Shown one piece after another: positions 4,385 to 58,387 of a stretch of 64,000 bases of DNA. This DNA is from Hyphomicrobiales bacterium (lineage in GTDB: Bacteria > Pseudomonadota > Alphaproteobacteria > Rhizobiales > Xanthobacteraceae). Location of the stretch: the NCBI GenBank assembly GCA_019243195.1, contig JAFAUQ010000044.1:1-64000 (forward strand), written 5' to 3'. Position 1 is the stretch's first letter. Each line of letters begins with the position of its first letter. The translations under genes and the position numbers were made by a program. The notes under the pieces were generated by a model, which was not told the DNA's origin, made no database searches, and saw only the letters and a program-made list of their open reading frames with translations.

Positions 4385-5083
4385 GTGGCAGATTTGCGCG
4401 ACATCAAGGTGCTCGTCTTCGATCAATACGGCACCATCGTCGACATGCAGCGCGGGCTCACCGAGTTCGTCACGCCGTTCCTCGCGCGCAAGGGTTGGGC
4501 CGGCAAGCCCGGCAGCTTCGTCACCTGGTGGCGGCGCACGCATTTCGAAAATTCGATGATCGATGCGCTCATCGACCGCGGCCACACGCCTTACCGGACC
4601 ATCGGGGAGCGCGCCGTCGCTTACGTGATGGACCGCTGCGGCATCGCCCACACCGCCGCGGAGGTGCACGACCTCGTCGCGGCGATCGAGCGGCTCAAAC
4701 CGTTTCCCGACGTGGTGCGCGCGCTCGAGAAATTGCGCGCGCACCGTTATCGCCTCGCGATCCTCTCGAACGGCGATCCCGACATGCTCGCGGCGGCAGC
4801 GCCGCACATCGGCTTTGCGTTCGACCATGTGATCTCGGTCGCGACGGCCGGCTATTTCAAGCCGCACTTCTCGACCTACGCCAAGGCGGCGGAGATCGTC
4901 GGCGAGGGCCGCCCGCGCATCCTGTTCGTCGCCAACCACGCGTTCGATTGCATCGGCGCCAAGGCGTCGGGCATGCGGACCGCCTTCATCGACCGCCGCA
5001 ATCGGCCATTCGGCGAGACGCCGCACTGGCCCGATCTCATTGTTTCCGACTTTGCCCAGCTCGCCGCCGTGCTCGCGCCCTGA
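4385..5083 (+). CDS. Haloacid dehalogenase type II family protein
   Basis: KVLVFDQYGTIVD, LAILSNGDPDML, FKPHFSTYAKA, HAFDCIGAKASGMRTAFIDR motifs. Confidence 0.85.
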   Translation: MADLRDIKVLVFDQYGTIVDMQRGLTEFVTPFLARKGWAGKPGSFVTWWRRTHFENSMIDALIDRGHTPYRTIGERAVAYVMDRCGIAHTAAEVHDLVAAIERLKPFPDVVRALEKLRAHRYRLAILSNGDPDMLAAAAPHIGFAFDHVISVATAGYFKPHFSTYAKAAEIVGEGRPRILFVANHAFDCIGAKASGMRTAFIDRRNRPFGETPHWPDLIVSDFAQLAAVLAP

Positions 5084-5207
5084 GGATAATTCACGCGCGG
5101 TTCGGACGCGTTCCTTTCCTGTGCAGACGCCCCTTCACTTGCCGGCGGGGTAGGCATAGGATTTTACCGCTCACCCGTACTCACGCGGGTGGACGGAGGA
5201 AGATGAC

Positions 5208-5453
5208 ATGAAACGGGTCATGATCGTCGCGCTGATGTCGGCCTTCGCCATCGGGTCGGCACTCGCGCAGGAGAGTTGCGAAACCAAGGCCGTGGGCAAG
5301 GACGGCAAAGCGCTGGCGGGCGCGGCCAAGACTTCGTTCCTGAAAAAATGCAAGGCCGAGGCATGCGAACCCAAGGCCGTGGACAAGGACGGCAAGAAGC
5401 TTTCCGGCGCCGCCCGCAACAGCTTCTTGAAAAAGTGCGAGGCCGGCGCGTAG
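5208..5453 (+). CDS. Small secreted PsiF-repeat-like protein
   Basis: Signal peptide plus two repeats C.TKAVGKDGKALAGAAKTSFLKKC / CEPKAVDKDGKKLSGAARNSFLKKC. Confidence 0.75.
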   Translation: MKRVMIVALMSAFAIGSALAQESCETKAVGKDGKALAGAAKTSFLKKCKAEACEPKAVDKDGKKLSGAARNSFLKKCEAGA

Positions 5454-5646
5454 GCTGCCCGCGTCCGTCTTGAGACGGCACTCGACGGGCTGGGGCCCGA
5501 ACATTGAGGCTCGCGTGTGCCCACGCGTTCCGGATGAGATCGATTTGCGCCGCGAACCGACGGCCGCGATCGCCGTTACCTTCGTAATCACATAGAGAAC
5601 TGCGGGACGCCTAGCGCGTCTGGAACAGAATTTAAGGGAGCGGATC

Positions 5647-6771
5647 ATGAAAGCCCTGTTCGGTGCCGTCACGGTCGCCGTGGTGATCATGGCGCTGGCC
5701 ACGCCGGCTGCGCTCGGCCAGCAGAAGACCGCCCGGGAATGTCGCGACGAATGGCGGGCGAGCACCGATCCCAACAAAGGCACGCAGAAGGATTTCGTCG
5801 CCAAATGCCGGGGTGAGGGGACGGCGGCTACTCCTGCCGCACGCCCAGCGGGTGGCGCTAAGACCGCGAAGGAATGCCGCGAGGAATGGCGGGCCAGCAC
5901 CGATGCCAACAAGGGCACGCAGAAGGATTTTGTCGCGAAGTGCCGCGGCGAGAGCGCGGCGGCCGCGCCGACTGCCAGTCCGCCCGCTGCGGGCGGGCCG
6001 AAGACCGCGCGGGAGTGCCGCGACGAGTGGCGCGCCAGCACCGATCCGAACAAGGGGACGCAGAAAGATTTCGTCGCCAAGTGCCGTGGCGAGAGCGCGG
6101 CGGCTGCTCCGACGGCCGGTCCGCCCGCCGCGGGTGGGGCGAAGACCGCGCGGGAATGCCGCGACGAGTGGCGCGCGAGCACCGATCCAAACAAGGGCAC
6201 CCAGAAAGACTTTGTCGCGAAGTGCCGCGGAGAGAGCGCGGCGGCGTCGCCCACGACCGGCGCGCCGGCCACCGGTCGCGCGACGAGGACTGTGCGCGAG
6301 TGTCGCGACGAGTGGCGTGCGAGCACGGATGCGGCCAAAGGCACGGAAAAGGATTTCGTCGCCAAATGCCGCGCGGGGCAGACCGCGGCCGCGCCCGCCG
6401 CACCCGCACCTGAGCCTAAGACCGCGGCACCGGCTCCGGCGCCTGCCCCCTCGACGGCAGCGGCACCGACCCATGAACAGGCGGCACGTCCGTCAGCAAC
6501 GGCACCCGCGCCCGCACCAAGCGCGACGGCTCCGGCGCGGCCTGCCGCGCCCGCCCCGACCGGCGCCGGCCAATATGAGGACGAGGCGCAGGCCAAGGCG
6601 CATTGTCCCGCCGATCTCGTGGTATGGGTCAACCTCAACTCGCACATTTATCACTTCAGCGGGACCGCCAACTACGGCAGGCATTTCAGCGAGAAAGGCG
6701 GCGCCTACATGTGCGAGAAGGACGCGCAGCGCGAGCAATTCCGCGCCGCGGAGAACGAGAAACGGCCGTGA
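5647..6771 (+). CDS. Secreted five-repeat protein (CRDEWRASTDxNKGTQKDFVAKCRGE repeats) with conserved C-terminal domain
   Basis: Five near-identical ~38-aa repeats, Ala/Pro-rich linker, C-terminal CPADLVVWVNLNSHIYHFSGTANYGRHFSEKGGAYMCEKDA. Confidence 0.75.
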   Translation: MKALFGAVTVAVVIMALATPAALGQQKTARECRDEWRASTDPNKGTQKDFVAKCRGEGTAATPAARPAGGAKTAKECREEWRASTDANKGTQKDFVAKCRGESAAAAPTASPPAAGGPKTARECRDEWRASTDPNKGTQKDFVAKCRGESAAAAPTAGPPAAGGAKTARECRDEWRASTDPNKGTQKDFVAKCRGESAAASPTTGAPATGRATRTVRECRDEWRASTDAAKGTEKDFVAKCRAGQTAAAPAAPAPEPKTAAPAPAPAPSTAAAPTHEQAARPSATAPAPAPSATAPARPAAPAPTGAGQYEDEAQAKAHCPADLVVWVNLNSHIYHFSGTANYGRHFSEKGGAYMCEKDAQREQFRAAENEKRP

Positions 6772-52460: not shown

Positions 52461-53117
52461 TCCGGCAGGAAACAATCGAAATGCTTGCGCCGTCTCGGGC
52501 GCAGCAAGCTTGCGCGCGGCGCGGCCGGTTAATCCATTAGTTTCCATTATCACTTCTTCACCAAATTCAATTTGACTTTCTGCCGCGGCGAAATCATATC
52601 TATCGCGGAATTTGCCGGACGTGCGTCCGCGCCGGCCGGCAATGATGAGGAGTCCGATGCGCCACATAGGCACCAATAGCGCGACAAATACCGCCGCCCG
52701 GTCGTTGACCCGACCGAGCACGTGGCGTCGCGCGCGCATGACCGGCCTATCGCGCTTCGATCGACCCGAACCAGGGTCACGACAACCGGATTAACCCGGC
52801 GGCGGGCAAGACCCTCCGCCGACAGGCAGGAGGGCCAAAGGTCCCGCAGAATTCCCCAGCAACGTCCGGCTTCGCGTCGACGCGCGCGTCATGCGCCCGC
52901 TGCCGCGTATCTTAAAGGTCGGCTCCCTCTCTGCCTCGCCAGTTTCTTGCTTGCGCTCTGCGCGGGCGTGATTGCTCGCGCCCGAGACTTGGACCCGTGC
53001 GGGTCCCGCTGTTTGACATTGTGAACGTCCAGAATTGGCCAGCGGCGCGCGTCGCGCCCTGTTCGCAGCTCGCTCTGCCCGCAGGCAAAGCGGCGCCCTG
53101 GCCATTTGTTCATATTC

Positions 53118-53194
53118 CGCTCCGTTAGCTCAGTTGGCAGAGCAGCCCCCCTGTAAGGGGCAGGTCGCGGGTTCGAATCCATGCACGGAGCACC
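53118..53194 (+). tRNA. tRNA-Thr-like (TGT), loop CCTGTAA (C33), irregular T-stem
   Basis: GCTCCGT/ACGGAGC acceptor, GCCCC-CCTGTAA-GGGGC anticodon arm, encoded ACCA. Confidence 0.75.
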
Positions 53195-53282
53195 ATTTCA
53201 GTAATCAGTGATCAGTAATCAGTGACCAAGGCGCGATTTATGGTCACTGGCGACTGATCACTGATCACTGATCACCGATTAT

Positions 53283-53360
53283 GCGCCAGTAGCCCAATCG
53301 GCAGGAGGCAGCTCTCTCAGAAAGAGTTCAGTGCAGGTTCGAATCCTGCTTGGCGCACCA
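53283..53360 (+). tRNA. tRNA-Leu-like (CAG) with short variable loop
   Basis: GCGCCAG/TTGGCGC, GCTCT-CTCAGAA-AGAGT, GCAGG-TTCGAAT-CCTGC, ACCA. Confidence 0.75.
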
Positions 53361-53445
53361 TTCAGTGACCAGTTATCAGTGATCAGTAATCAGAACGGCG
53401 GAACTTCGATCTGATCACTGATTGCTGGTCAATGATTACTGATCC

Positions 53446-53520
53446 GTCCCGTGACGCATCTGGCGAGGCGGTCCGCCTGTCGAGCGGATGAGAGGGATTC
53501 GATTTCCCTACGGGGCGCCA
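53446..53520 (+). tRNA. tRNA-Asp (GTC)
   Basis: GTCCCGT/ACGGGGC, TCCGC-CTGTCGA-GCGGA, AGGGA-TTCGATT-TCCCT, GCCA. Confidence 0.8.
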
Positions 53521-53622
53521 TCCTGCTTCGCGCTGCGCGCTTCGCAGGAGGACTGTGGTAGAGGCTCGCGGGATGTAATTGCTCATCCGTCCTCCGACGT
53601 CTGTCCTCGGTCATCTGCTTCA

Positions 53623-53708
53623 GGAAGGCTCCGCTGAATGGTCGGCGACTGGTCCCGAAAACCAGGGTGACCGCGAGGTCAGGGGTTCGATTCCTCAGCC
53701 TTCCGCCA
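53623..53708 (+). tRNA. tRNA-Ser (CGA), class II, loop CCCGAAA (C33)
   Basis: GGAAGGC/GCCTTCC, CTGGT-CCCGAAA-ACCAG, long variable arm, TTCGATT, GCCA. Confidence 0.85.
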
Positions 53709-53821
53709 ATTCAGTGAACAGTGACCGGTAGTCAGTGATCAGAAACGTAAATGTTTTCCGATAGCGGACACTTATAACCGACCGCTGGTCACTGATCACT
53801 GATCACTGATCACTGACTAAC

Positions 53822-53897
53822 GCCTGGGAAGCTAATCTGGTGAAAGCGCCGCGCTGAAGTCGCGGAGAGGTGGGCTCGAAACCTACCCCAGGCACCA
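53822..53897 (+). tRNA. tRNA-Phe (GAA), T-loop CTCGAAA
   Basis: GCCTGGG/CCCAGGC, CCGCG-CTGAAGT-CGCGG, ACCA. Confidence 0.85.
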
Positions 53898-53977
53898 ACT
53901 CCAGGGATCGGTTATCAGTGATCAGGAATCACAATTCGCGTGAACTTTCTGATGCCTGATCCCTGACTTCTGAACAC

Positions 53978-54049
53978 GGGACACGAGCAAGGGCTCAGAC
54001 CGGCCTTGCAAGCTGGTCGGGCGCGGAGCGTTACCGCGGTGTTCCACCA
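53978..54049 (+). tRNA. tRNA-Ala-like (TGC), T-loop AGCGTTA, compact D-arm
   Basis: GGGACAC/GTGTTCC, CCGGC-CTTGCAA-GCTGG, CGCGG-AGCGTTA-CCGCG, ACCA. Confidence 0.7.
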
Positions 54050-54050
54050 T

Positions 54051-54129
54051 TCCGGTCAAAGCCGAGCAGGTGCACGGCGCCGCCTGTTAAGCGGAGAATA
54101 GGCAGGTTCGATTCCTGCGACCGGAGCCA
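54051..54129 (+). tRNA. tRNA-Asn (GTT)
   Basis: TCCGGTC/GACCGGA, CCGC-CTGTTAA-GCGG, GCAGG-TTCGATT-CCTGC, GCCA. Confidence 0.85.
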
Positions 54130-54168
54130 ATTTCATGATCCCTGATTCCTGATGCCAGATACCTGAAT

Positions 54169-54246
54169 CCATCCATAGCTCAGTCGGAGCAGAGCACCCG
54201 GTTGCGGACCGGGAGGTCGCAGGTTCGAGTCCTGCTGGATGGTCCA
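54169..54246 (+). tRNA. tRNA-Arg (GCG)
   Basis: CCATCCA/TGGATGG, CCCGG-TTGCGGA-CCGGG, GCAGG-TTCGAGT-CCTGC, TCCA. Confidence 0.85.
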
Positions 54247-54263
54247 ATTCCGAAATAGGCTTT

Positions 54264-54340
54264 CAGGGCGTAGCGCAGTCCGGCAGCGCTCCTGGCTTGG
54301 AACCAGGAGGTCGTAGGTTCGAATCCTACCGCCCTGACCA
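54264..54340 (+). tRNA. tRNA-Pro (TGG)
   Basis: CAGGGCG/CGCCCTG, CCTGG-CTTGGAA-CCAGG, GTAGG-TTCGAAT-CCTAC, ACCA. Confidence 0.92.
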
Positions 54341-54429
54341 CTTCTCGCGACCAAACAACGGGAGGCTCTCATGCGACGCCATGACTTCGACGAACTGCCG
54401 TCCTTTCGAAGTCTCGCGCAAGCGGAGGC

Positions 54430-54616
54430 GTGGGCTATGCCTCGGAAACGCAAGTGCGGCGCGGCGACCGCGTCGTGCACGGCGACAAGGAGCTGATCGA
54501 GAAGCTCGGGCGCAACGACCTGTGCCCGTGCGGTTCTGGACGGCGCTTTCAAGAAATGCTGCCTGCGCTCCGGCCGCTTCGACGGCAACGAACGCAATTA
54601 CTATGTCCGTGATTAG
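54430..54616 (+). pseudogene. SEC-C-motif mini-protein with apparent frameshift, inside the tRNA array
   Basis: [20 protein letters not shown](R) then +1 frame [23 protein letters not shown]. Confidence 0.6.
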
Positions 54617-54664
54617 AGCATGATCCCGAAAAGTGGGAACCGATTTTCGGAAAAGATCATGCTC
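54616..54664. repeat. GAGCATGATC palindrome (family G)
   Basis: GAGCATGATCCCGAAAAGTGGGAACCGATTTTCGGAAAAGATCATGCTC. Confidence 0.9.
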
Positions 54665-54712
54665 CAACAATAAATCACGCAACGGACTTCGGCCCGTTGC
54701 GTATTCGCACCC

Positions 54713-54798
54713 GGAGAGTTGGCCGAGCGGCAAGGCATCGCGGTGCTAACGCGACGAGACCGAAAGGTCGGGCAGGTTCGACTCCTGCACTCTCCCCC
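54713..54798 (+). tRNA. tRNA-Ser (GCT), class II, no encoded CCA
   Basis: GGAGAGT/ACTCTCC, TCGCG-GTGCTAA-CGCGA, variable arm CGAGACCGAAAGGTCG, GCAGG-TTCGACT-CCTGC. Confidence 0.88.
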
Positions 54799-54803
54799 GC
54801 GTC

Positions 54804-54880
54804 GCTCCGTTCGCCAAGCGGCCAAAGGCATCGGTCCCACACACCGACATTCCGGGGTTCAAATCCTCGACGGAGCACCA
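54804..54880 (+). tRNA. tRNA-Val (CAC), loop CCCACAC (C33)
   Basis: GCTCCGT/ACGGAGC, TCGGT-CCCACAC-ACCGA, CGGGG-TTCAAAT-CCTCG, ACCA. Confidence 0.8.
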
Positions 54881-54892
54881 TCATTCGCATGT

Positions 54893-56465
54893 CCGACCCG
54901 GACACATGGGTGACAGAACGTACCTAAGACATGGGTGACAACCTCGTGCCGATCGGGCTGTCGAGAAGTTGCAAGGCGTTGTGCTCCACGGGTTGAGCGT
55001 CAGCTGACGCGAAGGCGTCGGGTGCGTGGTGACGCATTCTTGGCATGATCATTATTGCTCGGCGCGCGCTTTCGCCGTCAATCCCGCGCGCCAAGAGGCG
55101 CGCCCCTTCGGTCGTTGGGGATTGACGGCTCAGCGCGACGAGCAAGTTGCGACCATGCCAACAGTGCCAGATAGCGCGTCCCCGGTCAGAGCGCTGGCGT
55201 CGTACCGGAGACATCGGAGACAAGCTTTGGACCGAACGGGTTATCGACGGTCTGCAAGGTTCTTTGCTCCAGATCGAAGTAGCCGAGATCGTATTGCATG
55301 AAGCTGACGAGCCAAATGCCTTCGTCGACTTCCTTGATGCCGAGCCGTTGACCAGCCAGGACGGTCGAGATGTTGATCTTCTTGCGATGCAAGCAGAGGC
55401 GCCCGCAGGCGGTGACGAGCACGTCGCGGTCGTGGAAGGGATAGGAGAGCTCGGGCAGGCCGTCGTAGCGACGCGGTGAAGTGGTATACAGTTGCGCCGG
55501 ACACTTCATGTCGAGCGCTTCGTGCGGTCTTTCGACGTTGAACTCCTGCACGAAGGCGTCGAAGCGAGCCTGCTGTTGCAAGATGTTCGATCCTGACGGC
55601 CGGGTCGCCTCCTTCTTGAGCGTGAGATGCATGCGCTCGTGCCGGCCATTCTGCTGTGGACAGCCAGGTTTGATGCGCTCGATCGCGATGCCGAGGCGAA
55701 GCCACCAGACCGAGAGCTTTGAGAGACCGAACAAGCCGTTTGGGCTCGCAAAAGGCACGCCGTTGTCGGAGCGGATGGACAGCGGCAGCCCTCGTTCGGC
55801 AAACAGGCGTTCGAAGGCGGTAAAGGCGAGGTCCTCGCGTGTCGACTCGAGTGCTTCACACATGAGCAGGAAGCGCGAAGCCTGATCAGTGACGGTGAGC
55901 TGATAGCAATAACGTGCATTGCCGAGCTTGAACTCACCTTTGAAGTCGGCACACCACAGATCATTGGGCGCGGCGCCTGGCGAGAGCGGGGTCCCCTGCG
56001 CACGATGGCGCCGGCCCGCGGCGCGCTTGACCAGACCATGGCGGTCGAGAACCGCGTGGATGGTGCTCTTGGCTGGAAGGCGAACGTCGCCTTTGAGCCG
56101 CCGAAGCAGAAGCTCGCGGATCTTGCGTGCTCCCCAATGCGGCTTCTCCCCTTTCAGGCGGACGATCAAGTTTTCGAGCTGCTGCGGCAGCTGATTGGCG
56201 TATCGCACCGGCCGTCGCGAACGGTCGGTAAGGGCCTCAAGACCATGTTCCTTGTAGCGATCGAATATCTTGTATCCGGTTTTCCGGGATATCCCGAAAT
56301 CCCGGCACACGTCCGTCATTGCCTCGCCATCCAACAATCGGCCGACAAAGCGTAGGCGCTCTTCCATCACCGAACTCGCTTTCCACGGCATCAACACCTC
56401 CCGCCAAAACGCGAAAAGTGTTACCCATGTGTCCGGTACGAAGTGTCACCCATGTCTCGGGTCGG
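54893..56465 (-). mobile_element. IS481-family-like insertion sequence
   Basis: Inverted ends CCGACCCGGACACATGGGTGACA... / ...TGTCACCCATGTCTCGGGTCGG flanking a transposase ORF. Confidence 0.75.
55186..56397 (-). CDS. IS481-family transposase (intact-looking)
   Basis: N-terminal HTH and rve core: DLWCADFKGEFKLGNARYCYQLTVTDQASRFLLMCEAL, SIRSDNGVPFASPNGLFGLSKLSVWWLRLGIAIERIKPGCPQQNGRHERMHLTLKKEA. Confidence 0.92.
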   Translation of the reverse strand: MLMPWKASSVMEERLRFVGRLLDGEAMTDVCRDFGISRKTGYKIFDRYKEHGLEALTDRSRRPVRYANQLPQQLENLIVRLKGEKPHWGARKIRELLLRRLKGDVRLPAKSTIHAVLDRHGLVKRAAGRRHRAQGTPLSPGAAPNDLWCADFKGEFKLGNARYCYQLTVTDQASRFLLMCEALESTREDLAFTAFERLFAERGLPLSIRSDNGVPFASPNGLFGLSKLSVWWLRLGIAIERIKPGCPQQNGRHERMHLTLKKEATRPSGSNILQQQARFDAFVQEFNVERPHEALDMKCPAQLYTTSPRRYDGLPELSYPFHDRDVLVTACGRLCLHRKKINISTVLAGQRLGIKEVDEGIWLVSFMQYDLGYFDLEQRTLQTVDNPFGPKLVSDVSGTTPAL

Positions 56466-56468
56466 TCA

Positions 56469-56543
56469 GCACGTGAGCCGGAAAAGCGACGGCGGCGGCC
56501 GATAACCGTCTGACAGGAGGGGCAGTACCTCCCGCGTGCACCA
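56469..56543 (+). tRNA. tRNA-Ile-like (GAT), loop CCGATAA (C33), T-loop GGCAGTA
   Basis: GCACGTG/CGCGTGC, GGCGG-CCGATAA-CCGTC, GGAGG-GGCAGTA-CCTCC, ACCA. Confidence 0.65.
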
Positions 56544-56585
56544 GACAAGGAGCAAACAAATGCCTGCGCACAAACGCGGGGTCAT

Positions 56586-56669
56586 GGACCCCGAGCGTAA
56601 AGCCTGGATCGGCCGGGCACGGGACTTTTAACCCCGCCGCAGGAGGTTCGAGCCCTCCGGGGTTCACCA
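56586..56669 (+). tRNA. tRNA-Lys-like (TTT), expanded D region
   Basis: GGACCCC/GGGGTTC, CGGGA-CTTTTAA-CCCCG, GGAGG-TTCGAGC-CCTCC, ACCA. Confidence 0.6.
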
Positions 56670-56741
56670 CCCTGCTTCGCGCTGTGCGCTTCGCAGGATT
56701 GCGTTTACCCCTCCGAAGCCTTGGCGGAGGAGGGCACCATT

Positions 56742-56817
56742 GGACCACTAGCTCAATGGGCAGAGCGGCCGGCTCTTAACCGGCAGGTTCGGGGATCGTG
56801 GCCCCGGTGGTCCTCCA
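56742..56817 (+). tRNA. tRNA-Lys (CTT), T-loop ATCGTGG
   Basis: GGACCAC/GTGGTCC, GCCGG-CTCTTAA-CCGGC, CGGGG-ATCGTGG-CCCCG, TCCA. Confidence 0.8.
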
Positions 56818-56853
56818 TCCTGCTTCGCGCGACGCGCTGCGCAGGACTATTGA

Positions 56854-56930
56854 TGCAGGCAGATCGGTTAGGGATCCGCGCGGTCTCATAAGCCGCGTTG
56901 AGCCGGGTGCGACCCCCGGGCCTGCAACCA
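56854..56930 (+). tRNA. tRNA-Met/Ile2-like (CAT), T-loop TGCGACC
   Basis: TGCAGGC/GCCTGCA, GCGGT-CTCATAA-GCCGC, CCGGG-TGCGACC-CCCGG, ACCA. Confidence 0.7.
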
Positions 56931-56932
56931 AT

Positions 56933-57004
56933 GGGGAACGAGCAAGGGCTCAGGTTCGCCTTGCAAGCAAGCCGTGCGGGGAGCGTTACCCCGGTTCTCC
57001 ACCA
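56933..57004 (+). tRNA. tRNA-Ala-like (TGC), second copy, T-loop AGCGTTA
   Basis: GGGGAAC/GTTCTCC, loop CTTGCAA, CGGGG-AGCGTTA-CCCCG, ACCA. Confidence 0.65.
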
Positions 57005-57008
57005 ATTT

Positions 57009-57088
57009 TCCGGTCAAAGCCAAGCAAGGTGCAAGGCGCTGCCTGTTAAGCAGAGATTAGCCCGGTTCGATTCCGGGGGCCGGAGCCA
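57009..57088 (+). tRNA. tRNA-Asn (GTT), second copy
   Basis: TCCGGTC/GGCCGGA, CTGC-CTGTTAA-GCAG, CCCGG-TTCGATT-CCGGG, GCCA. Confidence 0.8.
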
Positions 57089-57089
57089 C

Positions 57090-57164
57090 GGGAGCATCGT
57101 CTAACGGGAAGGATACGACCCTCTCAAGGTCGTGACGCGGGATCGTGGCCCGCTGCCCCTGCCA
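57090..57164 (+). tRNA. tRNA-Glu (CTC), T-loop ATCGTGG
   Basis: GGGAGCA/TGCCCCT (one mismatch), CGACC-CTCTCAA-GGTCG, GCGGG-ATCGTGG-CCCGC, GCCA. Confidence 0.75.
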
Positions 57165-57166
57165 AC

Positions 57167-57215
57167 GAGCATGATCCCGAAAAGTGGGAACCGGTTTTCG
57201 GAAAAGATCATGCTC
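57167..57215. repeat. GAGCATGATC palindrome (family G)
   Basis: GAGCATGATCCCGAAAAGTGGGAACCGGTTTTCGGAAAAGATCATGCTC. Confidence 0.9.
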
Positions 57216-57222
57216 CAAGAAC

Positions 57223-57305
57223 ACGCACGTAGCCGACGCCGGCTTCGAACCGGTGATCCGTAAACGGAGCTGAAAATGGGGGTTCGAGTCCTCCCGTGCG
57301 TGCCA
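57223..57305 (+). tRNA. tRNA-Arg-like (TCG), apparently D-arm-less with long variable region
   Basis: ACGCACG/CGTGCGT, GCCGG-CTTCGAA-CCGGT, GGGGG-TTCGAGT-CCTCC, GCCA. Confidence 0.5.
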
Positions 57306-57306
57306 T

Positions 57307-57470
57307 CAGTGCCGCGAACCCGAAGTTCGCACGGCAATTGCCGCGAGTCCGATTGCGAACTTCGGGTTCAAAGCGGCACTAGAATCATAGGTTTGCTAGT
57401 GTCCTTCGATTCCGAAGTTCGCTTCCGAACGTGCTGCAAACTCAGGCGAACTTCGGAATCGGGACACTAG
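57307..57470 (+). repeat. Family B double-hairpin repeat inside the tRNA array
   Basis: CAGTGCCGCGAACCCGAAGTTCGC..GCGAACTTCGGGTTCAAAGCGGCACTAG + CTAGTGTCCTTCGATTCCGAAGTTCGC..GCGAACTTCGGAATCGGGACACTAG. Confidence 0.85.
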
Positions 57471-57471
57471 A

Positions 57472-57546
57472 TTGGCATTTCGTTCAACGGCAGGACACCT
57501 GACTCTGACTCAGGGGATCATGGTTCGAATCCATGGAGGCCAACCA
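57472..57546 (+). tRNA. tRNA-Gln (CTG)
   Basis: TTGGC../..GGCCAA, CCTGA-CTCTGAC-TCAGG, CATGG-TTCGAAT-CCATG, CCA. Confidence 0.75.
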
Positions 57547-57708
57547 ATGGCACATGTGAGAAAAGGCATGCTCGTTTCGTCGCCGCAATGGCGGAAACAC
57601 TTGCGCGATTGGAAACGCATTTTCTGGAAGAAACATCGCAAGGCGGAAAAGGCCGCAGTTCGGCGCAGTGGCGAAACGGGAGCGCGGCGGTTTGCAAAAC
57701 CGCTTTGA
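57547..57708 (+). CDS. 53-aa very basic mini-protein, begins immediately after tRNA-Gln CCA
   Basis: MAHVRKGMLVSSPQWRKHLRDWKRIFWKKHRKAEKAAVRRSGETGARRFAKPL. Confidence 0.5.
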   Translation: MAHVRKGMLVSSPQWRKHLRDWKRIFWKKHRKAEKAAVRRSGETGARRFAKPL

Positions 57709-57795
57709 GCATGATCCCGAAAAGTGGGGACCGGTTTTCGGAAAAAGATCATGCTCCAAGAATATGAGCCGGCGCGACACCGGCGTGCGCCTCTA
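57662..57795 (+). tRNA. tRNA-Cys-like (GCA) split in the variable region by a family G palindrome
   Basis: GGCGCA/TGCGCC, GCGGT-TTGCAAA-ACCGC, then palindrome 57707-57757, then GCCGG-CGCGACA-CCGGC. Confidence 0.55.
57707..57757. repeat. GAGCATGATC palindrome (family G) within tRNA-Cys
   Basis: GAGCATGATCCCGAAAAGTGGGGACCGGTTTTCGGAAAAAGATCATGCTC. Confidence 0.9.
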
Positions 57796-57871
57796 GCCTC
57801 CGTAGCTCAGCGGACAGAGCGGCCGGCTTCTACCCGGCAGGTCGGGCGTTCAAATCGTCCCGGGGGAACCA
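57796..57871 (+). tRNA. tRNA-Arg (TCT)
   Basis: GCCTCCG/CGGGGGA, GCCGG-CTTCTAC-CCGGC, GGGCG-TTCAAAT-CGTCC, ACCA. Confidence 0.8.
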
Positions 57872-57888
57872 CATTGTTCCCGGCATAC

Positions 57889-57962
57889 ACCAGCGTGATG
57901 TAACGGCAGCATGGCGGCTTCCAACTCCGCTCGTCAGGGTTCAAATCCTTGCGCTGGTGCCA
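57889..57962 (+). tRNA. tRNA-Gly-like (TCC), enlarged anticodon loop
   Basis: ACCAGCG/CGCTGGT, GCGG-CTTCCAACT-CCGC, CAGGG-TTCAAAT-CCTTG, GCCA. Confidence 0.65.
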
Positions 57963-57987
57963 ACCTAACGGCCTCTCCCAATTTCAT

Positions 57988-58062
57988 GCGGGTATAGCTC
58001 AGAGGCAGAGCCGCGGTCTTCCAAACCGTCGGTCGCGGGTTCGATCCCCGCTGCCCGCTCCA
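57988..58062 (+). tRNA. tRNA-Gly (TCC), canonical
   Basis: GCGGGTA/TGCCCGC, CTTCCAA, GCGGG-TTCGATC-CCCGC, TCCA. Confidence 0.93.
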
Positions 58063-58066
58063 ATCG

Positions 58067-58134
58067 GAGCATTTTCCGGAAAAAGCCTGCCCCGCACTCG
58101 ATGCGGGGTGGGCACCGGTTTTCCGTAGAAAATG
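58067..58134. repeat. Variant palindrome related to family G with nested CCCCGCACTCGATGCGGGG hairpin
   Basis: GAGCATTTTCCGGAAAAAGCCTGCCCCGCACTCGATGCGGGGTGGGCACCGGTTTTCCGTAGAAAATGC. Confidence 0.7.
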
Positions 58135-58149
58135 CGACCAAATAGATTC

Positions 58150-58226
58150 GCCGCCTTCGTCTAGCGGAACAGGACCCCGGTCCTTCAAACCGGTCGACGC
58201 GGGTTCGAATCCCGCAGGCGGCGCCA
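58150..58226 (+). tRNA. tRNA-Glu (TTC), loop CCTTCAA (C33)
   Basis: GCCGCCT/AGGCGGC, CCGGT-CCTTCAA-ACCGG, GCGGG-TTCGAAT-CCCGC, GCCA. Confidence 0.9.
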
Positions 58227-58234
58227 CTTTTGCT

Positions 58235-58308
58235 GGAGCATGATCTTTTCCGAAAACCGGTACCCACTCCGCATCGAGTGCGGGGCAGGCTTTTTCGGGA
58301 TCATGCGC
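58235..58308. repeat. Family G palindrome with internal GCATCGAGTGC insert
   Basis: GAGCATGATCTTTTCCGAAAACCGGTACCCACTCCGCATCGAGTGCGGGGCAGGCTTTTTCGGGATCATGCG. Confidence 0.75.
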
Positions 58309-58311
58309 TAT

Positions 58312-58387
58312 TCGGGGGTGGCGCAACTGGCGGCGCGGCCGACTTTGAATCGGCAGGTTGAAGGTTCGAGCCCTTCCCCCCGAGCCA
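58312..58387 (+). tRNA. tRNA-Gln (TTG)
   Basis: TCGGGGG/CCCCCGA, GCCGA-CTTTGAA-TCGGC, GAAGG-TTCGAGC-CCTTC, GCCA. Confidence 0.92.

Follow-up and report, generated by a model that had tools for sequence, protein, structure and literature searches.

Coordinated elbow changes in the tRNAs of an array family found in alphaproteobacteria and phages

Are tRNA genes whose T-loops depart from the ordinary bacterial sequence decaying copies, or are they working tRNAs with a different elbow? The question is raised by a dense tRNA gene array in a 64,000-nucleotide stretch of DNA from a Hyphomicrobiales bacterium of the Xanthobacteraceae (start of contig JAFAUQ010000044.1, assembly GCA_019243195.1, 66% complete in 285 contigs). 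We call this whole stretch the window (G000:C195; G and L numbers are our own handles for genomes, contigs and loci). An initial annotation listed seven array genes with odd T-loops, two for Ala and one each for Lys, Glu, Ile, Met and Cys (Table 1). All seven loops are present. Six were recovered, each with a perfect 5-bp T-stem, by a scanner that ignores T- and D-loop sequence and scores stems, spacing, CCA and, as a small bonus, U33 and a purine at loop position 6; the Cys gene was read by eye. The same scanner returned 0–1 matches in block-shuffled versions of the region and two on the reverse strand. As annotated, C56 is kept in all seven loops and G57 in all except Ile. The accompanying statement that these loops abandon T54 and T55 applies partly to each loop and fails as a blanket claim, since ATCGTGG keeps T55 and TGCGACC keeps T54. 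None of the seven genes, six of them uninterrupted, has the TTCRANN loop with G18 G19 of canonical bacterial tRNAs. They fit the 7/5 form, the only one that the scanner sought, and not the 8/4 or 9/3 form of allo-tRNAs.

Elbow positions change together across the array family to which these genes belong. The covariation set comprised 344 distinct tRNAs from bacterial and viral arrays, in 221 sequence clusters. Ordinary tRNAs have a reverse-Hoogsteen pair, T54.A58, and this was the most frequent combination (T.A in 144 clusters), followed by A.T (25), G.G (23) and A.A (21), with eight others. These four types accounted for 213 of the 221 clusters, compared with 156 under random pairing and a maximum of 171 in 5000 permutations, and G.G alone occurred in 23 clusters against a permuted maximum of 13. 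Position 60 followed position 54: among the 146 T54 clusters, 140 had a pyrimidine there and 6 a purine, whereas purines occupied it in 44 of 47 A54 clusters and in all 23 G54 clusters. The combination of A54.A58 with a purine at 60, as in eukaryotic initiator tRNAs, was seen in the ATCGA class of other arrays (19 clusters) and in none of the window genes.

The contacts between the D- and T-loops were exchanged in a similarly coordinated way. A18-G19 replaced G18-G19 in all 21 G55 clusters versus 12 of 189 T55 clusters (p=9e-21); the clusters are not wholly independent events, so that such p-values overstate the evidence, and positions 18 and 19 were assigned by a length rule under which most T55 tRNAs scored as AG also contain GG. 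This rule replaced a test with automatically picked D-stems (p=0.06), in which the picker had paired away the GG. G55 occurs in 11 amino-acid families. When genes for Cys, His, Pro, Phe, Glu, Ala and others are compared with their nearest homologues, its joint exchange with A18 can be seen as a substitution. Examples are AAACAGGAA with GGCAGCA versus AAACGGGAA with ATCGACA (Cys), AATAGCA with AGCGTAA versus AATGGCA with TTCGATT (His), and AAGG with AGCGTTA versus CGGG with TTCGACT (Ala). All four intact G55 genes of the window (Ala twice, Ile and Met) have A18-G19. Where C56 itself was lost, Watson-Crick pairing of 19 with 56 was preserved in 9 of 10 tRNAs (four A19-U56, one U19-A56, and four C19-G56, all in closely related Glu tRNAs); the lone exception is a Cys tRNA with A19 and G56. 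In a Phe tRNA on the minus strand at L173:1081-1156, with T-loop GGAGGAA and D-loop ATCTATTGA, both elbow pairs are swapped, to A18.G55 and U19-A56.

These covariations show strong selection to hold the L-shaped tertiary structure, even as the elbow sequence varies. The initial annotation had proposed an alternative elbow geometry shared by the odd genes. An altered geometry is strongly supported by the exchanges at 54/58, 18/55, 19/56 and 54/60, and in place of a single form there are several types: A54.T58 or A54.A58 with U55, G54.G58 with U55 or G55, and G55 with A18.

Homologous arrays occur in ten further genomes of the same family (G077, G116, G284, G362, G100, G184, G080, Bradyrhizobium lablabi, B. 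jicamae and B. guangdongense), located by a leader pattern, DNA probes and the odd Ala D-arm pattern. A long family probe was swamped by a repetitive extragenic palindrome (REP)-type repeat, and the repeat-free probe used instead found arrays in 6 of 391 family genomes. An order-wide scan of 397 genomes with the AAG-type mini-D Ala pattern matched the window alone. Matches in four genome contigs (L055, L057, L058 and L059) held no tRNAs and were rejected. Two scans of IMG/VR returned seven viral contigs with such Ala genes, of which five are clear arrays and two (L169 and L171) hold few genes; another match, L172, has a tail tape-measure gene and no tRNAs and was rejected as a chance pattern match.

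Homologous arrays on phage contigs with head genes tie the family to mobile elements, and the window array itself has the number and density of many-isotype tRNA genes that characterize tRNA array units. A major head protein (phrog_371 / PF10124) is common to four viral contigs (G391, G395, G400 and G401), with 50–95% identity between that of G391 and those of the other three, and G391 also carries head decoration, DNA ejection and ERF genes. The bacterial genomes that were tested yielded no G391-type prophage, and the window genome, at 66% completeness, no such head protein. Most phage and bacterial arrays have a common gene order, with the composite T L V V I K L D P M R S M Y G F A N E R P Q C R S G E Q M H W covering all 20 amino acids. 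Between phage G401 and G284 the longest common order was 26 of 29 genes, compared with a mean of 9.8 and a maximum of 14 after shuffling. The window array itself is shorter and rearranged.

Non-canonical T-loops are frequent in these arrays, in 69 of 231 distinct bacterial-array tRNAs (30%) and 56 of 113 viral-array tRNAs (50%). Chromosomal control tRNAs from G000, G080, G100 and G284 had TTCRA in 86 of 87 distinct sequences and U33 in all 87. The window motifs recur in other bacterial genomes and phage contigs, a check that the initial annotation had suggested. The Ala loop AGCGTTA was also found in G100, G184, G396 and phage G400, with TGCGTTA in G080 and GGCGGTA in three other viral contigs. 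Lys-CTT has ATCGTGG in G100, ATCGTTG in G116, and ATCGTTA in G184 and G080; homologues of the window Glu-CTC have ATCGATA in G100 and G080. Met has TGCAACC in G284, B. lablabi and B. jicamae, and the window Met gene has homologues about 90% identical in G284 and G362. Loops of the GGCAG class recur across different arrays, in genes for Val, Cys, Ile, Phe, Pro, Glu and Trp.

Pseudogene decay, in which the odd T-loops would be degraded copies of canonical tRNAs, is very improbable as a general account. Canonical homologues had been named in advance as the finding that would imply it, and some exist: Ala has TTCGACT or TTCAACT in Bradyrhizobium-type arrays and phage G391, and Lys-CTT and Glu have homologues with TTCGAGT, the Lys one in Bradyrhizobium-type arrays. 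An IS481 element and repeats have also been inserted into the window array. Other homologues, however, are non-canonical with the same or a matching loop in different genera and in phages, and the D-loop changes alongside, which we interpret as compensated change and not decay. The window Cys gene differs from the rest. Its T-arm, GCCGG[CGCGACA]CCGGC (~57769-57785, read by eye), has a good GC-rich stem, but its variable loop is split by a copy of a 55-bp repeat (57707-57761), it has a G7.G66 acceptor mismatch, and it carries G18 alongside G55, contrary to the 18/55 rule elsewhere; other arrays hold intact Cys homologues. It is a broken gene that does not belong in the annotated list of odd elbows, and of the seven it alone looks like a pseudogene: both Ala genes, Lys, Ile and Met show neither broken stems nor interruption, and Glu has a single acceptor mismatch.

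Array tRNAs retain an intact cloverleaf, a 3' CCA and identity elements. The 13 distinct Ala sequences form a gap-free alignment of 69 bases, in which 99.3% of stem cells are paired and both sides change in 14 of 21 stem pairs; the two window copies, at 81% identity, differ by compensating stem changes. G3.U70, the known alanine identity element, is fixed in all 13 sequences, while the next three pairs swap freely. This covariation and invariance count against decay. For Ala, Lys and Met, recurrence and covariation together already largely refute it; for Cys it stands. Discriminator bases agree with those of chromosomal tRNAs for most amino acids, with exceptions in Glu, Lys, Gly and some Arg. 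Fixed G3.U70, covarying Ala stems and matching discriminators amount to an argument for charging, not a demonstration, and from these sequence features we infer that array tRNAs may be charged and used in translation. They probably still fold and work, with an elbow that is no longer host-like.

What could drive such change? We favor, at a probability of about 0.6, the reading that this phage-type array family is a second tRNA set, covering in its complete arrays all 20 amino acids, whose elbow diversified under tertiary constraint, probably to escape host elbow readers. In these tRNAs A.T, A.A or G.G with a purine at 60 takes the place of T54.A58, and A18.G55 that of G18.U55, while the outer 19-56 pair stays Watson-Crick, nearly always as G19-C56. 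The array tRNAs would serve translation as a second set. The canonical D- and T-loops may be read by a host factor, whether an immune nuclease or toxin that attacks tRNAs or the enzymes whose targets are U54 and U55; array tRNAs would escape this reader and yet stay usable by the ribosome and synthetases. That avoidance of a canonical-elbow reader drove the diversification is the less certain part, although avoidance of T-loop modification or recognition, which the initial annotation had raised, is plausible. A bolder version is possible but doubtful: a phage lineage may have re-coded the elbow of its full 20-amino-acid set as a unit (54.58, 18.55, 19-56 and 60), leaving it invisible to elbow-reading host immunity or modification yet translation-competent, with later capture by bacterial chromosomes, as a natural second 'elbow code'.

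Several observations weigh against host-driven escape, besides the limits on the covariation counts given above. Many tRNAs of the same arrays remain canonical. The cultured phages DSS3P8, XacN1 and CcrSC, which have large tRNA sets, are almost all canonical (2 of 78 scanner matches odd), so phage carriage alone does not force altered elbows. The window's gene order matches that of phage G401 weakly, at 12 of 22 and inside the shuffled range. No elbow-reading nuclease turned up, and no search was aimed at host U54/U55 enzymes or defence systems.

The strongest rival is compensated drift, in which phage or mobile-element tRNAs are used briefly, selection is weak, and the elbow wanders through compensated intermediates with no host driver. 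Every exchange preserves pairing, as drift under structural constraint would also predict, and the canonical cultured phage arrays make no general driver evident. Also resembling relaxed constraint is C33, at a position where U33 is near-universal in tRNAs, in 29 of 344 array tRNAs. Nevertheless, we consider drift unlikely: the 56 altered viral-array tRNAs keep their acceptor and T stems intact, the same few solutions recur over amino-acid families (G55 alone in 11), and two to four coordinated substitutions are needed at sites nearly invariant in ordinary tRNAs. By source, C33 was found in 27 of 231 bacterial-array, 2 of 113 viral-array and 0 of 87 chromosomal tRNAs; it includes Ile-GAT (loop CCGATAA) in six arrays, those of the window, L039, L040, L061, L062 and L063.

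The array could alternatively be a silent backup set, induced under translational stress, with an elbow suited to unmodified or damaged-translation conditions. The model would be the trn operon of Anabaena sp. PCC 7120, in which 26 tRNAs form an operon-like second set beside a full housekeeping set and aid survival under ribosome-targeting antibiotics (PMC10272220). Our array resembles it as a second set with a conserved leader. The Anabaena operon differs in being TrcR-repressed and plasmid-borne, and an alternative elbow goes unmentioned in the accessible parts of that paper. We regard a stress role as improbable, because the leader pattern is present in only 2 of 296 family genomes, arrays are rare in the family by the repeat-free probe, related arrays sit in phages, and no regulator was found.

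To our knowledge, conservation of the tRNA elbow bases is so strong that nature offers hardly any covariation at 18/55, 19/56 and 54/58. Zagryadskaya and Steinberg reportedly selected suppressor tRNAs with altered 54-58 or D/T-loop contacts, testing the importance of the 54-58 pair; those are laboratory selections, whereas the array tRNAs are natural. The arrays show repeated elbow covariation over many amino-acid families, amount to a natural experiment on the elbow contacts that translation requires, and supply ready-made tRNAs without U54 or U55. They also raise the possibility that phage-host conflict targets elbow recognition.

Dense tRNA arrays are themselves already known (PMC5966550, PMC12803027, PMC10272220). 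The tRNA array units of Mycobacterium and its phages and plasmids are likewise dense many-isotype clusters tied to mobile elements or phages, and an anti-defence role has been proposed for them (PMC5966550, PMC12803027). Rewritten T- and D-loops are unmentioned for those units in the accessible parts of these papers, and the present family is one of alphaproteobacteria and G391-type phages. Phage tRNAs can resist anticodon nucleases through anticodon-loop changes (PMC10264068) or defeat retrons (PMC11555353). These are similarly thought to replace attacked host tRNAs, but the former are changed in the anticodon loop and the array tRNAs mainly in the elbow. In eukaryotes, A54.A58 is linked with a purine at 60 (PMC7566577), and the T-loops of initiator tRNA and AGC-tRNA-Ala match our ATCGA class (PMC7566577, PMC7912444). 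The arrays add bacterial and phage cases of A54.A58, of which a published survey found none (PMC7566577), and their A.T, G.G and A18.G55 types are further solutions. Nowhere in the openly accessible literature that we searched are bacterial or phage tRNAs described as exchanging 54/58, 18/55 and 19/56 in a coordinated way.

Table 1. Positions of the tRNA array, its odd T-loop genes and associated features in the window.
Feature	Position	Strand	Details
tRNA array, ~26 tRNA or tRNA-like genes	53119..58387	+	ARAGORN, Rfam, stem scanner
Conserved array leader TGTTTGACATTGTGAACGTCCAGAATTGGCCAGCG	53010..53044	+	33-base pattern, exact upstream of G077 array
tRNA-Ala(TGC), first copy	53978..54049	+	T-loop AGCGTTA; mini D-arm GAGC-AAGG-GCTC (A18 G19); G3.U70
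IS481-family insertion, between Val and Ile	54890..56465	-	ends by eye from inverted ends TGTCCGACCCGGACACATGGGTGACA / TGTCACCCATGTCTCGGGTCGGTCA
tRNA-Ile(GAT)	56469..56543	+	T-loop GGCAGTA; A18 G19 in D-loop; C33
tRNA-Lys(CTT)	56742..56817	+	T-loop ATCGTGG (A54.T58)
tRNA-Met(CAT)	56854..56930	+	T-loop TGCGACC (G55); D-loop GGTTAGG (A18 G19)
tRNA-Ala(TGC), second copy	56933..57004	+	T-loop AGCGTTA; A18 G19; G3.U70
tRNA-Glu(CTC)	57090..57164	+	T-loop ATCGTGG; one acceptor mismatch
Interrupted tRNA-Cys	57664..57794	+	T-loop CGCGACA; read from sequence

Within the 5.3 kb of the window array, ARAGORN predicted 20 tRNA genes and the Rfam tRNA model gave 15 matches over its gathering score. The stem scanner added both Ala genes, Ile and a Ser-CGA-like gene, and an extra Lys-TTT at 56593 scores under the gathering threshold. 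We tested ten open reading frames (ORFs) with Pfam, nine array neighbours and one IS481 transposase within the array (55186-56397, minus strand; rve, HTH and LZ_Tnp_IS481 domains). Seven of the nine neighbours had matches, including transport proteins, altronate dehydratase, peptidase S46 and VanW, and two had none; no phage genes were among these nine. Three copies of the 55-bp REP-type repeat lie inside the array, as do copies of a CAGTGATCA-type repeat. Rhizobial plasmids carry IS481 copies similar to the array insertion, and plasmid searches returned IS481, HNH genes and short tRNA-sized matches, with no array. The window array is in a chromosomal setting, took IS481 and repeat insertions, and has begun losing genes (Cys).

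Ahead of the arrays in the window (53010-53110) and G077 (L039 ~5540-5655), the leader TGTTTGACATYGTGAACGTCCAGAATWGGCCAGCGGCG is followed by a long inverted repeat. A reading of the leader motif TTTGACATTGTGAA as an rRNA-type boxA was unconfirmed: within this genome it is matched exactly at the array alone, other matches have two mismatches, and rRNA positions were unchecked. The arrays of G284 and G362 (L151 and L154) share flanking DNA some distance off (88% over 4.4 kb), suggesting that arrays in that genus occupy the same site in the chromosome. Several arrays, bacterial and viral alike, have genes for HNH or homing-type endonucleases within or next to them (L054 ~4880-5383, L174 11098-12324 and L170 7488-8012).

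Unusual D-arms were also observed. In the Ala tRNAs of the window and of L042:7283-7354, L061:7580-7651 and L174:7367-7438, a 4-bp D-stem with a 4-base loop directly follows the acceptor stem, the 8-9 linker being absent, and ends three bases ahead of the anticodon stem. Viral arrays have mini D-arms in Trp, Gln and Met genes as well. An Ile-TAT-like tRNA combines a short D-arm with a variable arm of 22–24 bases at L040:470-559, L061:12341-12431, L063:8801-8891 and L170:10655-10744.
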